Position numbers and translations under genes: made by a program. From positions 1-64,000 of the forward strand of contig NZ_MKCR01000012.1 of NCBI RefSeq assembly GCF_001855565.1: 64,000 nt of DNA. The letters run 5' to 3'. Below the pieces are notes generated by a model. It saw only the letters and a program-made list of their open reading frames with translations. It searched no databases and had not been told where the DNA came from. Position 1 is the first letter of the stretch. Each line of letters opens with the position of its first letter. Below, piece by piece: positions 19,856-25,759 of the stretch. The DNA comes from Chromobacterium amazonense. Lineage in GTDB: Bacteria > Pseudomonadota > Gammaproteobacteria > Burkholderiales > Chromobacteriaceae.

Positions 19856-21205
19856 TCATGGCAGAGCAGTGGCGTCGCCCCCTGTGCGGGCTTCGCCGGC
19901 CTGCACCTCGTCCAGTGCCTCCAGGCTGGCATCGACCAGCCACTGCATTTCTTCGCCGCTCAGTGTGTACGGCGGCATGAAGTAGACCGTCTTTCCGATG
20001 GGCCGCAACAAGCATCCGCGTTTCAGCATGGCCGAAAAATAGGCCAATGCAAAGTCCGTGCGCGAAGTCTCCACGTCGAAGGCCCAGATCATGCCGCGCT
20101 GACGGAAATGGCGCACATCCGGCCGCTGGCGCAGCGGCTGCATGCGGCGGGTAAAGTCCTCCGCCAGGATGCGGTTGGCTTCCAGCACGTTTTCGTCTTC
20201 AAAGATGTCCAGCACCGCCAGCGCCGCGGCGCAGGCCAGCGCGTTGCCGGTATAGCTGTGCGAGTGCAAAAAGCCGCGCGCCACGTCGTCATGGTAAAAG
20301 GCTTGGTAGACATCGTCCCGCGTCAGCACGCAGGACAGCGGCAAAAAGCCGCCGGTGATGCCCTTGGACAGGCACAGGAAGTCCGGCGCGACGCCGGCCT
20401 GCTGGCAGGCGAAGAAGCTGCCGGTGCGGCCGAAGCCGACTGCGATTTCGTCGGCGATCAAGTGCACCTGGTATTGATCGCACAGCCGGCGCAATTCCGT
20501 CAGATAGACCGGATCGTACATCGCCATCCCGGCCGCGCCCTGCACCAGCGGCTCCACGATGACGGCGGCGATCTCATGGCTGCGTTTGGCCAGCAGATTG
20601 CCCAGCGATTGGGCGGCGCGGCGGGCCACATCGGCGGCCGTTTCTCCGGGCGCGGCCTGCCGGGCATCCGGCGACGGCGCGCGCAGGCTGGGTTTCAGCA
20701 GATCGGCGTAGGTGGACGAGAAAATCGGCACATCGGTCACCGCCAGCGCGCCGACCGTTTCGCCGTGGTAGCTGTTTTCCAGGCTGACGAAGCGCGTCTT
20801 TTGCGGCTGGCCGCTGTTTTTCCAATAATGGAAGCTCATCTTCAGCGCGATCTCCGTCGCGCTGGCGCCATCGGAGCCATAAAAGGCATGGCCCAAGCCA
20901 GACAGCGCGGCCAGCCGCTCGGACAACTCCACCACCGGGCGGTGGGTGAAGCCGGCCAGCATCACGTGCTCCAGGCTGTCCAATTGTTCGCGTATCGCCT
21001 GCTTGATACGCGGATGGCTGTGGCCGAACAGATTGACCCACCAGGAGCTGACGCCGTCCAGATAGCGCTTGCCGTCAAAATCGGTCAGCCAGACGCCATC
21101 CGCGCTGGCGATGGGGATGATGGGCAGGCTTTCGTGGCGCTTCATCTGCGTGCACGGGTGCCATACGGCGGCGCGGCTGCGTTCCAGCCAGGCTTGGTTG
21201 CTCAT
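19856..21205 (-). CDS. bioA: Adenosylmethionine-8-amino-7-oxononanoate aminotransferase
   Basis: BioA, 449 residues, is a PLP-dependent class III aminotransferase that converts KAPA to DAPA with SAM as amino donor in biotin synthesis. VWHPCTQM, GVSSWWVNLFGH, YGSDGASATEIALKM, the PLP-site region LIADEIAVGFGRTGSFFA and the lysine motif CLSKGITGGFLPLS are all typical of BioA. The ATG at 21205 has a near-ideal AGGAGG 5 nt upstream, so the longer frame to 21241 is not used. The rest of the biotin pathway is not in the window. Confidence 0.96.
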   Translation of the reverse strand: MSNQAWLERSRAAVWHPCTQMKRHESLPIIPIASADGVWLTDFDGKRYLDGVSSWWVNLFGHSHPRIKQAIREQLDSLEHVMLAGFTHRPVVELSERLAALSGLGHAFYGSDGASATEIALKMSFHYWKNSGQPQKTRFVSLENSYHGETVGALAVTDVPIFSSTYADLLKPSLRAPSPDARQAAPGETAADVARRAAQSLGNLLAKRSHEIAAVIVEPLVQGAAGMAMYDPVYLTELRRLCDQYQVHLIADEIAVGFGRTGSFFACQQAGVAPDFLCLSKGITGGFLPLSCVLTRDDVYQAFYHDDVARGFLHSHSYTGNALACAAALAVLDIFEDENVLEANRILAEDFTRRMQPLRQRPDVRHFRQRGMIWAFDVETSRTDFALAYFSAMLKRGCLLRPIGKTVYFMPPYTLSGEEMQWLVDASLEALDEVQAGEARTGGDATALP

Positions 21206-21341
21206 GGGGGCCTCCTGTGGGGTGATGGCCGATGCTAACACAGGGCGGGAAAATGACCGATGTGACGAAAAACGTCAGTTTATGCCGTCTGGCGGCCGAT
21301 CAATCGACATGCGCGCAGCGTAAAATCACGGCGAAGCAGGG

Positions 21342-21357
21342 TGGCATGCTTCCTGCT
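21342..21357 (+). promoter_or_regulatory. Sigma-54 type promoter for the pilin gene
   Basis: TGGCATG-N4-CTGCT has the GG/GC spacing (10 nt between) of the -24/-12 element and 10 of 12 matches to TGGCACG-N4-TTGCA/T. It lies about 125 nt before the pilin ATG. PilA genes in Pseudomonas and relatives are sigma-54/PilR dependent, which supports the call. Confidence 0.7.
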
Positions 21358-21379
21358 GTATGGTTTGACAGAGAAAGAA

Positions 21380-21404
21380 GACGCGCAGCACGCGTCCGTT
21401 TTTT
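21380..21404 (+). terminator. Terminator-like hairpin in the pilin 5' leader
   Basis: GACGCG pairs with CGCGTC around CAGCA and is followed by CGTTTTTT, downstream of the sigma-54 start and upstream of the pilin ATG. A second strong GC hairpin (about 21416-21450, GGCAAG...CTTGCC) follows. Together they could attenuate or stabilise the pilin mRNA. Confidence 0.5.
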
Positions 21405-21481
21405 GAAGAAGAGGCGGGCAAGCCGCGCGGATTGCGCGGCGCCTTGCCAGACTCAAGCTTGACTAGACCATGGAGTTCAAC

Positions 21482-21991
21482 ATGAAGAAAAGACAAATCC
21501 AGCAGGGTTTCACCCTGATCGAATTGATGATCGTGGTGGCGATTGTCGGTATCTTGGCTGCGATTGCGATTCCCTCGTATCAGAATTATACCGCTCGGGC
21601 TCGGGTAACTGAAGGTTTGAGCGTTGCAGATGCTGCCAAAGTTTCGGTATCGGAATCTGCTGTAAATGGTAATACAAAATACAGTTCAGGCTATACCTTT
21701 GGTCAGGCAACTAAGAATGTTTCTGGGGTTTCAGTTTCGGATACCACCGGTGCGATTACTGTTACTTTTCAATCTAACGTCGCAGCATCTGGCGCTAATA
21801 CCTTGATGTTGGTGCCTTACTATGTGGCAAGTGGTGGTACTAATACCGCTTTGCCAGATAGCTCATCTGCTACGAATGCAGCGGTGACGAGTCAGATTCT
21901 ATGGCAGTGCTTGACAGCAAGTAGCACGGCAAAGGTTGGTAGTAACGCTGCTACATTAGCATCTAGTATGGCCCCGGCAGAGTGCCGTTAA
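21482..21991 (+). CDS. pilA: Type IV major pilin (PilA/PilE type)
   Basis: A 169-residue prepilin with the class IVa leader MKKRQIQQG cut before Phe, then [31 protein letters not shown] with Glu5 of the mature form. ATG 21482 is preferred over 21470 because of GGAG at 6 nt and the short leader. The globular part is rich in Ser, Thr, Ala and Asn, with [11 protein letters not shown] and a C-terminal disulfide pair (WQC...ECR), so it is the assembling pilus subunit. From about codon 36 on, the DNA is AT-rich (21 G+C of 60 bases at 21661-21720), unlike neighbours. Two putative O-linked glycan ligases follow. Confidence 0.93.
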
Positions 21992-22016
21992 TTTTTTAAC
22001 ATGATTTAAGGTGAGG

Positions 22017-22044
22017 CGGGCAGATACTTCTGCCCGTTTTTTTT
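22017..22044 (+). terminator. Intrinsic terminator after the pilin gene
   Basis: CGGGCAG/CTGCCCG (7-bp stem, ATACTT loop) followed by eight T residues, 26 nt after the pilin stop. It would leave the downstream ligase at a low readthrough level, suiting a stoichiometry of many pilins to few enzymes. Confidence 0.85.
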
Positions 22045-22055
22045 GGAATATCTTT

Positions 22056-23882
22056 ATGCGAACCATGTGGCTTCAATGTCTATTAGTGACATCCGTTTCC
22101 TTGCCATTTTTCAATCCTTGGCATTTTCAGCCGGTAGGCGATTGGGTAAGTAGTGCTGCATGTATAAGTCTGGCAGGACTTGGTTTGCTTGGTTTGTGTT
22201 TCTATAACATAAAAGGTCAAACTTCTAATTGTAAAGCTGCATTTTTCTTCATTTTCCTATTCAGTTTGCTACAGTTGCTAAGGCTGCAGTACAGCCTGCC
22301 TTTTTCTGTCCTTGCGTTATTTTTTCTGGCCATAGTTAGTTTGGCCGTTGCACAGTTTGAAAGCAATCAACGTAATCAGCTTATTCTTTGTATCGCATCA
22401 GTTGTCCTCGCCGCGGCCTTGTTGCAGTCGGTGCTGGGCTTCATCCAGGCATTAGGGCTGGCCCCGCTCGCGCGTGGTTGGGTGCTGTTCAATCCGGGTT
22501 CTAGCGATGTGATTGGCAACTTCGGCCAGCGCAACCAGCTGGCGCAGTTTTTGGGTTGGGGAGCCGTTTCCGCCGCCTACCTGTACGCTACGGGCCGCAT
22601 GGGGCGAGTGGCGACGGGCAGCGCGGTGCTGGTGCTGGCGCTGCTGATGAGCTGGACCGGCGCGCGGCTGCCGCTGGCGTACGGTTTGGGCCTGGCCTTG
22701 CTGGCCTGGTTCTGGCATCGACGCGTGCCGCAGGACGAGACTGTGGCGCGCATGGCCTGCGCCTTGGCTTGGTCGGTGCTGGCCCTCGCCTTGATCCAGA
22801 TATTCAACCAGCAGATTGATAGCGTTTTGCAAGCCATCGGCTTGCCCATCCATGTGCAGAGCGGTTCCGACCGCTTGCTGGACGCTGGTTTCGGAGCGCG
22901 CCGCCGCATCGAATGGAGCAAGGCCTGGGAGGTGTTCACGCAGCATCCGTGGCTTGGCGTGGGGCTGGGCGGTTATGCTTGGCATTCCGCTTGGCTGGAG
23001 GCGTACGGCGGTTGGCCCAAGGTGCCGGAGAGCTGGCTGTTTACCCATTCCCATAATCTGATTTTCCAGCTGCTGGCGGAAACCGGTCTGGTTGGTACTT
23101 TGCTTGCGGTGGGTGGTTTGCTGTGCTGCCTGCTGCCGTATTTCCGGCGCGGCGAGCAGACGGCAGACAATCTGCTGCTGATCAGCATCGCCATGATGTT
23201 GCTGGGGCATTCGATGTTTGAATACCCGCTGTGGTATCTGCCCTTCCTGCTGATGCTGGTGATCATTTGCACGCTGAGTCCCGCCAAAGGTTGGACGGTG
23301 CAATTGAGCGGGCGCTTCCGGCAAGTCTTGGGCTTGAGCGCAGGCGTGCTGGCCCTGGCCTATGTGGCAAGCGGCATCCTGCCTTACCGGCAGCTGATCC
23401 AGAATTTCACGCCGCGCAACGAGAATACCTTGCAGGCCAGTTTGGACAACGCCAAGCGCTCGCTGAAACTGTCCGAGTTGTCGCGCAATCCGTTGTGGAG
23501 CTGGGAAGCGGATTTGGGCATGGTCAACTATTTGCAGCCGGACGGCATCATGCGCGATTTGCAACTGGAACTCGCGGAGCGCGTGGCGCGCTACCAACCG
23601 TTTCCGACCGTGCTGATCAAGCTGTCCATCCTGCGCGCCTTGAATGGCCAGGCCGAGCCGGCCAAGCAGGCGCTGACGATGGCGATTGCCAATTACCCGG
23701 ATTACACGCCGCTGTTCCAGCATGAGCTGGCGCGTTACCGCCAGCCAGAGCTGAAGCCTTTGCAGGACATGGCCTCCAAGGCGGTGAAAGCCGGCGCGGC
23801 GCAGGGCGGGGCCACCGACCCCGGCCGCCTCGCCGCCGTGATGACCGTCGCCTCCCCGGTGACGCGCCAGCCTATCTTCTGA
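22056..23882 (+). CDS. PglL/TfpO-like O-oligosaccharyltransferase, pilin-proximal copy
   Basis: A 608-residue polytopic inner-membrane protein with about 10-12 helices. It has a Wzy_C/O-antigen-ligase type core: GNFGQRNQLAQFLGWG, a Wzy-like periplasmic loop, THSHNLIFQLLAETG (His-rich catalytic-loop motif) and LGHSMFEYPLWYLPFL, then a soluble C-terminal domain. It probably transfers lipid-linked glycans to Ser/Thr of the adjacent pilin. The ATG at 22056 is chosen because the GTG at 22011 lies before the terminator hairpin. The first ~115 codons are strikingly AT-rich (16 G+C of 60 at 22201-22260) and the rest GC-rich (43 of 60 at 22561-22620), suggesting recombination inside the gene. Confidence 0.85.
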   Translation: MRTMWLQCLLVTSVSLPFFNPWHFQPVGDWVSSAACISLAGLGLLGLCFYNIKGQTSNCKAAFFFIFLFSLLQLLRLQYSLPFSVLALFFLAIVSLAVAQFESNQRNQLILCIASVVLAAALLQSVLGFIQALGLAPLARGWVLFNPGSSDVIGNFGQRNQLAQFLGWGAVSAAYLYATGRMGRVATGSAVLVLALLMSWTGARLPLAYGLGLALLAWFWHRRVPQDETVARMACALAWSVLALALIQIFNQQIDSVLQAIGLPIHVQSGSDRLLDAGFGARRRIEWSKAWEVFTQHPWLGVGLGGYAWHSAWLEAYGGWPKVPESWLFTHSHNLIFQLLAETGLVGTLLAVGGLLCCLLPYFRRGEQTADNLLLISIAMMLLGHSMFEYPLWYLPFLLMLVIICTLSPAKGWTVQLSGRFRQVLGLSAGVLALAYVASGILPYRQLIQNFTPRNENTLQASLDNAKRSLKLSELSRNPLWSWEADLGMVNYLQPDGIMRDLQLELAERVARYQPFPTVLIKLSILRALNGQAEPAKQALTMAIANYPDYTPLFQHELARYRQPELKPLQDMASKAVKAGAAQGGATDPGRLAAVMTVASPVTRQPIF

Positions 23883-23974: not shown

Positions 23975-25759
23975 ATGACTTTTCAGAAACTATCCGAGCG
24001 CCTGGCGCTGCTGGCGCTGGGCTTGATCGCCATCGTGCCGTTCGCCTCGCGCGTGCACTTTGTGCCGCTGCCGCAGTGGTTCGGCGAAATCAATGTGATC
24101 TGGCTGCTGTTGGCCGCCGGCGTCTTGCTGATGCCGTCCGGCCGCTTGTTCGACGCCATGCCGCGCGCCAGCTGGTGGTGCCTGTTGCTGGCGGCGGTGT
24201 GGGCGCTGCAGCCGCAATTCGTTCACCTCTTGTTCCCGGGCATGAGCTACGTCACCGCGTTGGGCTGGCTGTCGCTGGCCTTGCTGGCCTCGGTGACGGC
24301 GTCGCTGCGCGGCGCGTTCGGCGAGCGGGAGTTTGCGGTATGGCTGGCGCGCGCCATCGTCGTGGGCGGCCTGGTGCAGTCGTTGATCGGCACGGCCCAG
24401 GTGACCGGGCTGGCGCCGGTGCTGGGCCTGTTCTATGACAGCTCCCACCCCACCAGCAATATCTTCGGCCATATCGGCCAGCGCAATCAGTATGCCCATT
24501 ACTTGATGTGGTCGGTGCTGTCCGGCGTTTACCTGTTCGCTGTGGGCCGCCTGGGCCGCAACTGGCTGATCGCTTTGGTGCTGTGGATGTCGCTGATGCT
24601 GGCTTGGGCCGGCTCGCGCTCCATTTTGCTGTATCTGGTTGCGATGTCGGCGCTGGCGGGCCTGTGGTACTGGCGCAACCGCGATGAAGCGCTGGGCCGG
24701 CTGATGAAGGCGATGTGGCTGACCAGCGTGGTGATCGTCGCCGCGCAGTTCGCCTTGCCGCTGTTCAATCATTTGATCTCCCTGCTGACCCACACCGACG
24801 TGGAAAACGCTTCCGGCGTGGCGCGGCTGGCGGCCAATGGCGACGATATGGGCGCGCGCCGCTTCGCCGAGATGCACAAGGCCTGGCTGACTTTCCAGGC
24901 GCATCCGCTGTGGGGCGTGGGTTGGTCGCAATACGCGGCGGAGAGCGTGCGCCTGCAGCCGCTGCCGCAGTTCGCCGCGGCCGGCTACAACAGCGGCTTG
25001 TTCACCAACGCGCATAATCTGGTGATGCAGCTGTTGGCGGAAATGGGCGGCCCGGCCACGGCGCTGGTGGTGGGCGGCTTCCTGTGGGTGGTGCTGCCGT
25101 TCTTCCGCCGCGCGGCGACGCCGGAGGGCGTGCTTGCCTTGGGCTGCGTGGCGGTGACCTTGACCCATAGCATGCTGGAGTACCCGCTGTGGTACTTCTA
25201 CTTCCTGGCGATGCTGGTGATCTTCGTCGCTATGGCGCCGCGCGACGAGAAGCTGCCGGCGCCCTGGTTGCGCTTGCCGCTCTTGGGCGCGCTGGTGTGG
25301 GTGGGTTGGTTGTCCATCAGCACCACGCCGATGTTCTGGGAGCTGGTCAATCTGTATACGCCCACCGGCAACGCGCAAAAGGATGCCAAGCGCAGCGAGC
25401 GGCTGATCGAAATCATCGAAACCAAGCCCTTGTTCGCCTATCACGCCTTGTACACGCTGGACGATTATCTGCCGATCACCCGCGACAATCTGAAGCAGAA
25501 GCTGGCGCTGGAGGACAGGCTGACCGCCTTCCGTCCGTACCCGGACGTGATGCTGAAGCGCGCGCAGATGGAGATTCTGGCGGGCCAGAAGGCCAAGGCA
25601 GAGCAGACGCTGCGCACCACGCTGGCGTCGTTCCCCACTTACGCCGGCCAGTTCATCGAGACGCTGGGCGACGCGAACCCGGAATGGGAGCCGCTGCGCA
25701 AGATCAGCCGTGAAGCCTACGACAAGTTGCCGGCCAAGTTCCGCACCTTGCAGGAGTGA
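23975..25759 (+). CDS. PglL-like O-oligosaccharyltransferase, second tandem copy
   Basis: A 594-residue polytopic membrane protein, paralogous to the gene before it: FGHIGQRNQYAHYLMW, AWAGSRSILLYL, LFTNAHNLVMQLLAEMG and LTHSMLEYPLWYFYFLAML align with the other ligase. The C-terminal domain is a short TPR-like soluble tail. It is GC-rich throughout, in contrast to the mosaic first copy. The start MTFQKL at 23975 fits the family; 23930 is an alternative with GGAG 7 nt upstream. By analogy with Neisseria PglL and Acinetobacter paired ligases, one may be pilin-specific and the other general; which is which is unknown. Confidence 0.85.
   Translation: MTFQKLSERLALLALGLIAIVPFASRVHFVPLPQWFGEINVIWLLLAAGVLLMPSGRLFDAMPRASWWCLLLAAVWALQPQFVHLLFPGMSYVTALGWLSLALLASVTASLRGAFGEREFAVWLARAIVVGGLVQSLIGTAQVTGLAPVLGLFYDSSHPTSNIFGHIGQRNQYAHYLMWSVLSGVYLFAVGRLGRNWLIALVLWMSLMLAWAGSRSILLYLVAMSALAGLWYWRNRDEALGRLMKAMWLTSVVIVAAQFALPLFNHLISLLTHTDVENASGVARLAANGDDMGARRFAEMHKAWLTFQAHPLWGVGWSQYAAESVRLQPLPQFAAAGYNSGLFTNAHNLVMQLLAEMGGPATALVVGGFLWVVLPFFRRAATPEGVLALGCVAVTLTHSMLEYPLWYFYFLAMLVIFVAMAPRDEKLPAPWLRLPLLGALVWVGWLSISTTPMFWELVNLYTPTGNAQKDAKRSERLIEIIETKPLFAYHALYTLDDYLPITRDNLKQKLALEDRLTAFRPYPDVMLKRAQMEILAGQKAKAEQTLRTTLASFPTYAGQFIETLGDANPEWEPLRKISREAYDKLPAKFRTLQE

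Follow-up and report, generated by a model that had tools for sequence, protein, structure and literature searches.

The locus described here raises the question of how a single uninterrupted gene came to have two compositionally unlike parts, and whether the first of these changed together with the pilin gene that precedes it. It lies in a 64,000-nt stretch of the Chromobacterium amazonense genome (the window; genome G000), in which the gene order is bioA (reverse strand), pilA, ligase 1, ligase 2, rpoH (reverse strand), and ftsX/E/Y (reverse strand), where bioA, rpoH, and ftsX/E/Y are the names that we presume for the housekeeping genes. The pilA gene (positions 21482–21991, forward strand) encodes a type IV pilin of 169 aa (Pfam Pilin, 1e−12; N_methyl, 1.1e−9), and ligase 1 (22056–23882, forward strand) encodes a PglL-type O-oligosaccharyltransferase of 608 aa (Wzy_C_2, 1.4e−24; Wzy_C, 2.2e−16; PglL_A, 8.9e−9), in which the PglL_A motif (Pfam PF15864) occupies residues 153–176 (22512–22583, forward strand). 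The conserved upstream flank is bioA (19856–21202), and the downstream flank is ligase 2, a conserved PglL-type paralogue identified with Pfam (23975–25759, forward strand); their nucleotide identities to the nearest species (G009) were 0.95 and 0.96, respectively. A terminator-like hairpin with a T8 run was recognized by eye in the spacer between pilA and ligase 1 (22017–22044, forward strand), and a run of at least five T residues was present in 11 of 18 pilA–ligase spacers of the genus, in G010 at the spacer start only. Upstream of pilA, a GG-N10-GC pattern was seen by eye at 21342–21358, which presumably resembles a sigma-54 promoter.

PglL_A, Wzy_C, and Wzy_C_2 all scored above the Pfam cut-off in ligase 1 and in ligase 2, and by this domain set both enzymes would be placed in the PglL/PglS class. 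In the relevant passages of PMC3643930 and PMC12645811, PglL_A occurs with Wzy_C and Wzy_C_2 in PglL/PglS enzymes, and many of the genes adjoin a pilin gene; C. violaceum ATCC 12472 is entered with the context “pilin, 2” in the PMC3643930 passage. These passages deal with enzymes, gene context, and substrates, and mosaic ligase genes are not described in them. The assignment of ligase 1 to the TfpO/PilO class was considered and rejected, because known TfpO is without PglL_A and Wzy_C_2 according to the passage in PMC12645811 and ligase 1 has both. The co-variation of ligase 1 with the pilin, with ligase 2 constant, suggests that ligase 1 is PglS-like and acts on the linked pilin; ligase 2 may be a general ligase that accompanies a pilin-specific ligase 1.

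The initial annotation had described an AT-rich block over the pilin body and the 5′ part of the ligase gene, and the base composition agreed with this description. The GC content of the 820 bp from position 21590 was 0.440 versus 0.609 in the whole window, and 0.06% of all 820-bp segments were as low in GC as this block. The segments with GC ≤0.47 formed one valley, with starts at 21392–21735, which was the lowest-GC valley of the window. An abrupt change had been proposed near 22400–22410 within the ligase frame; the maximum likelihood change-point fell after codon 116, between 22403 and 22404, where the GC content of the ligase rose from 0.405 to 0.633, and its log-likelihood ratio (LLR) was 29.7, whereas none of 500 codon permutations exceeded 10.7. 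The GC content at third codon positions (GC3) was 0.71 in pilin codons 1–24, 0.38 in both the pilin body and ligase codons 1–120, and 0.79–0.82 afterwards. In other words, the pilin N-terminus was less affected than the body, as had also been proposed.

The window's genome was then set against 18 congeneric genomes. A two-rate model applied to the comparison with G009 delimited a replaced tract at 21553–22500 (forward strand), consisting of the pilin body, the spacer, and ligase codons 1 to ~149, with a divergence of 0.381 within the tract and 0.042 outside it (LLR 378.4). When the alignment was divided into 50-bp blocks, identity to G009 was 92–98% at 21203–21552, 47–82% at 21553–22502, and 96–100% in the next twelve blocks. 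At the upstream joint (21523–21553, pilin codons ~14–24), isolated differences from G009 began in the DNA alignment at 21523 and dense differences at 21553, which was also the best tract start (2-unit support range, 21543–21553). The downstream joint was located by three pairwise comparisons at 22478–22517 (ligase codons ~149–154), just before PglL_A; the last difference from G009 was at 22517 and was followed by 167 identical bases, and the open reading frame continued through the joint. Among the 703 pairs formed by 38 loci of the family, G000–G009 had the largest ligase change-point (LLR 154.7, residue 150), and a weaker one occurred in a pair from another genus (G050–G052; residue 80, identity 0.68 to 0.90, LLR 44.0). 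Further along the ligase body, identity to G009 was lower (0.84–0.92) at 23253–23402 and 23703–23852, possibly reflecting further short exchanges.

The four-fold degenerate sites distinguished replacement from change in place. Between G000 and G009, 37/50 of these sites differed in the pilin body and 26/40 in ligase residues 1–148 (jointly 63/90), versus 21/244 in the rest of the ligase, 32/330 in ligase 2, and 22/228 in bioA (8.6–9.7%). Because the silent sites diverged in the tract and the flanks were normal, protein-level selection is insufficient, and replacement explains the pattern; excess silent divergence, sharp edges, and normal flanks, the marks of a recombination tract, were all found. 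Rapid evolution in place, by diversifying selection or local hypermutation of the pilin and the ligase N-terminus with no import, would be in keeping with the fast change of surface proteins and with the congruent topologies of the two ligase halves described below. However, such a silent excess bounded by sharp edges argues against it, as do three vertical-like pairs of genomes that have no such excess in the N-terminal half, and we consider it highly improbable. The window very probably holds a recombinant allele, in which an import of ~0.95–1 kb replaced the pilin body, the spacer, and the first ~150 ligase codons, at a locus that does so repeatedly. The contiguous replacement put forward in the initial annotation, running from the conserved N-terminal region of the pilin to a point inside the ligase gene, is thereby supported. 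According to this reconstruction, one edge would lie in the strongly conserved coding region of the pilin N-terminus and the other just before PglL_A, where ligase alleles regain similarity, and the ligase body carrying Wzy_C and Wzy_C_2 would have stayed resident together with the flanking genes.

The downstream edge (about 22500–22517) lay ~95–115 bp beyond the GC step at 22403, and the step therefore sits inside the import. The crossover that had been assigned to the step is thus within the ligase gene, as suggested, but not at the step itself; the lesson is that a crossover cannot simply be placed at a GC step, which here lies ~100 bp inside the imported DNA. A composition step common to all relatives had been named as a sign of an ancient native feature. 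No such common step was found: in 14 of the 18 genus genomes the best ligase GC step was elsewhere, with LLR values of 10.9–12.5 in G001, G004, G011, and G012. The remaining genomes besides the window had LLR values of 14.7 (G006, residue 136), 8.1 (G009, residue 74), and 2.7 (G010, residue 92), and the value for G009 is unremarkable because the four genomes named above exceed it at other positions. It is nevertheless possible, if doubtful, that the step is ancient and native to the allele family, so that AT-richness is mute on recent transfer. The 5′ part of the G006 ligase is also lower in GC, that of G009 weakly so; six other genomes (G001–G005 and G012) have ligase 1 genes of low GC3 throughout (0.27–0.50), with bioA and ligase 2 at 0.74–0.87; and the GC edge falls inside the imported tract rather than at its end. 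An old step would account for the composition but not for a 38% divergence bounded at both ends, and it is compatible with the replacement proposed here.

A third species, G006, allowed the joint to be examined in three pairwise combinations. The best tract for G000–G006 was 21620–22478, and the best tract for G009–G006 was 22041–22505, that is, the ligase part without the pilin. In the ligase N-terminal part, four-fold sites differed at 27/37 for G000–G006 and 30/41 for G009–G006. Outside this part, the G009–G006 differences were 25/85 in the pilin body, 50/215 in bioA, and 65/215 in the rest of the ligase. Because the divergence between the G009 and G006 pilins is close to that of bioA and the ligase rest, it is the pilin of the window that stands apart; because the ligase N-terminal parts of all three species differ mutually, the direction of replacement is read from the pilin body only. 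The reverse reading, in which the older allele is the one in the window and the swaps took place in G009 and G006, is left some room by the mutual differences of the three ligase N-terminal parts, where either direction would fit. It is nonetheless unlikely, since the G009–G006 pilin comparison looks vertical beside bioA and it is the window that looks replaced. Replacement in the window is thus preferred, and a minimum of two events, their edges almost coinciding, probably joined three N-terminal parts to one body, because the ligase body of G000, G009, and G006 diverges about as the flanks do.

The trees agreed with this in branch length rather than in branching order. Both ligase halves grouped G000, G009, and G006 and recovered the same deeper groups. 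Congruent trees for the two halves had been offered as grounds for rejecting a transfer, and in the literal sense of topology they were obtained; however, the tree path from G000 to G009 (sum of branch lengths) was 0.83 in the N-terminal half and 0.036 in the C-terminal half, and the silent sites also disagreed strongly. The corresponding N/C paths were 0.32/0.20 for G008–G018 and 0.28/0.21 for G015–G016. Congruent topology with discordant path lengths and silent sites indicates a donor with the same allele family rather than vertical inheritance. Meanwhile, the tree of bioA and ligase 2 paired G006 with G002 (SH-aLRT 97), whose ligase 1 was far off, so that ligase 1 and its flanks disagree. 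In the pilin tree, G009 and G006 stood together (98/89) with the window outside, and an AU test did not reject a sister relationship of the window and G009 in the pilin body (p = 0.075 for protein, 0.239 for DNA). Given the congruent topologies and this non-rejecting AU test, the case rests on the silent divergence and the edges.

In Neisseria pilE/pilS antigenic variation, the pilin N-terminus is conserved and the variable body is replaced. Conversion from silent copies within the genome would give a variable pilin body behind a conserved N-terminus here as well. However, unlike in that system, the tract extends into the ligase gene, and no silent pilin copies or second ligase N-terminal copy were found in the window's own draft genome of 35 contigs, in which gaps remain: the ligase N-terminal part matched only itself, and the pilin body matched itself and one other sequence at 42%. 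This speaks against silent-cassette conversion, which we regard as the least probable of the alternatives. Import from elsewhere is the preferred reading, and the donor would be a bacterium outside the sampled genomes whose allele belongs to the same family. No close donor was found among 61 genomes of the family, where, outside the window's own genome, the ligase N-terminal part reached at best 61% (in G009) and the pilin body 62% (in G009 and in G006), and among 399 genomes of the order the ligase N-terminal part had matches only in its own genome and in G022 (35%) at an E-value of 1e−12. The route may have been homologous recombination after DNA uptake. Searches with ComEC and DprA gave matches, and the controls also matched in 10 and 11 of 14 genomes; because both searches matched E. 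coli as well, they are uninformative on competence. The Neisseria uptake 10-mer was absent from ~354 kb of genus DNA, and the pertinent passage of PMC3630211 reports no obvious uptake sequence for C. violaceum ATCC 12472 and Chromobacterium sp. C-61.

Why the downstream edge recurs near residue 150 is explained only in part by sequence similarity. Residues 151–162 were the first stretch of the ligase with a mean identity of >0.6 between distinct alleles (0.68). Higher similarity peaks lie further downstream (residues 283–294, 331–342, and 385–402), together with more exact shared runs; therefore, local similarity alone fails to explain an edge at ~150. In an AlphaFold model of ligase 1 (14 sequences; mean pLDDT 82.7, with blocks in residues 21–100 down to 58; pTM 0.83), residues 1–148 comprise five predicted helices of 14–30 residues and part of a loop. 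The model had no PDB match at an E-value of 0.001 and so was used for helix boundaries only, with no active-site distances; a sequence relative has a solved structure (9rmk_A, E-value 1.6e−42). Tentatively, the first five helices may be a module open to exchange, whose joint recurs at the PglL_A edge, the pilin allele and the module travelling together onto a constant catalytic body; if this holds, G000, G009, and G006 carry three helix modules on one ligase body.

The initial annotation had taken the swapped ligase part to face the substrate, and this found no support: the swapped part consists of the five predicted helices, Wzy_C and Wzy_C_2 are located in the retained part, and the targeting of PilE by Neisseria PglO chimeras follows C-terminal segments (PMC9239064, in the passage on these constructs). 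Because those segments correspond to the part kept in the window, a swap that brought in a matching substrate-facing part is unsupported. As described in the same passage, the PglO chimeras resemble the window's ligase in being fused at conserved stretches and still glycosylate proteins, but unlike it they were made in the laboratory. Since such fusions are functional, it is plausible that an enzyme would keep working after a natural swap of part of its gene. The same edge in three species with three N-terminal parts amounts to a set of natural chimeras for finding out what portion of a PglL-type ligase has to fit its pilin, a question so far addressed with the laboratory Neisseria chimeras.

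The whole locus showed signs of exchange across the genus. The order bioA–pilA–ligase 1–ligase 2–rpoH was found in 18 of 19 genomes, including the window's own, and protein identity to the window was 40–88% for ligase 1 and 69–99% for ligase 2. Among the 19 close pairs, defined by identities of ≥0.86 in both bioA and ligase 2 (species overlap, and the pairs are not independent), ligase 1 was >0.10 below the lower flank in 13, three were the partial swaps among G000, G009, and G006, and three (G004–G005, G008–G018, and G015–G016) were vertical-like, their ligase halves differing by ≤0.03 in identity. In the 13 pairs, identity in the body of the pilin closest to ligase 1 was ≤0.72, the first pilin copy being at 0.90–0.91 in two of them (G001–G004 and G001–G005). 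Judged from sequence comparison, the differences in these pairs span the entire ligase, which is the outcome expected of a whole-cassette swap. A variable pilin and a modification gene between conserved flanks, with differing alleles in close relatives, are features of an exchangeable pilin-accessory cassette, and they were all observed here. The recurrence would then comprise two related species holding other N-terminal parts on the same ligase body and whole-cassette swaps in the other close pairs. The partial correlation with pilin distance was 0.58 for the ligase N-terminal half given the C-terminal half and −0.02 for the C-terminal half given the N-terminal half; physical linkage alone can explain this.

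Pilins and their modifying enzymes have been described as jointly acquired cassettes. In P. aeruginosa, as given in a passage of PMC11841053, pilA is linked to tfpO, tfpW, or tfpX/Y/Z with a terminator after the pilin gene, and TfpO and TfpW glycosylate their pilins, thereby evading pilus phages. The window shares with these cassettes the variable pilin and the linked accessory gene, and the hairpin recognized by eye is a candidate for a terminator between them. In contrast, all 18 alleles compared from the genus belong to the same PglL-type family, and one joint falls within the ligase gene, which means that the enzyme was exchanged in part. The kind of event is therefore known, and the recurrent joint that puts the cassette edge inside the enzyme gene is the unusual point; among the open-access matches listed, no title or abstract opening mentioned mosaic pglL or pilin–ligase alleles in Chromobacterium. 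Pilus phages or immunity may be the selective driver. The one genome that departs from the common order, G013 (L043), has no ligase 1, retains ligase 2 and rpoH at their usual positions, gave no bioA match in its fetched stretch, and has its best pilin matches on another contig. Finally, two tandem pilin genes precede ligase 1 in 8 of 18 genus genomes (L031, L033, L034, L035, L041, L042, L045, and L046).
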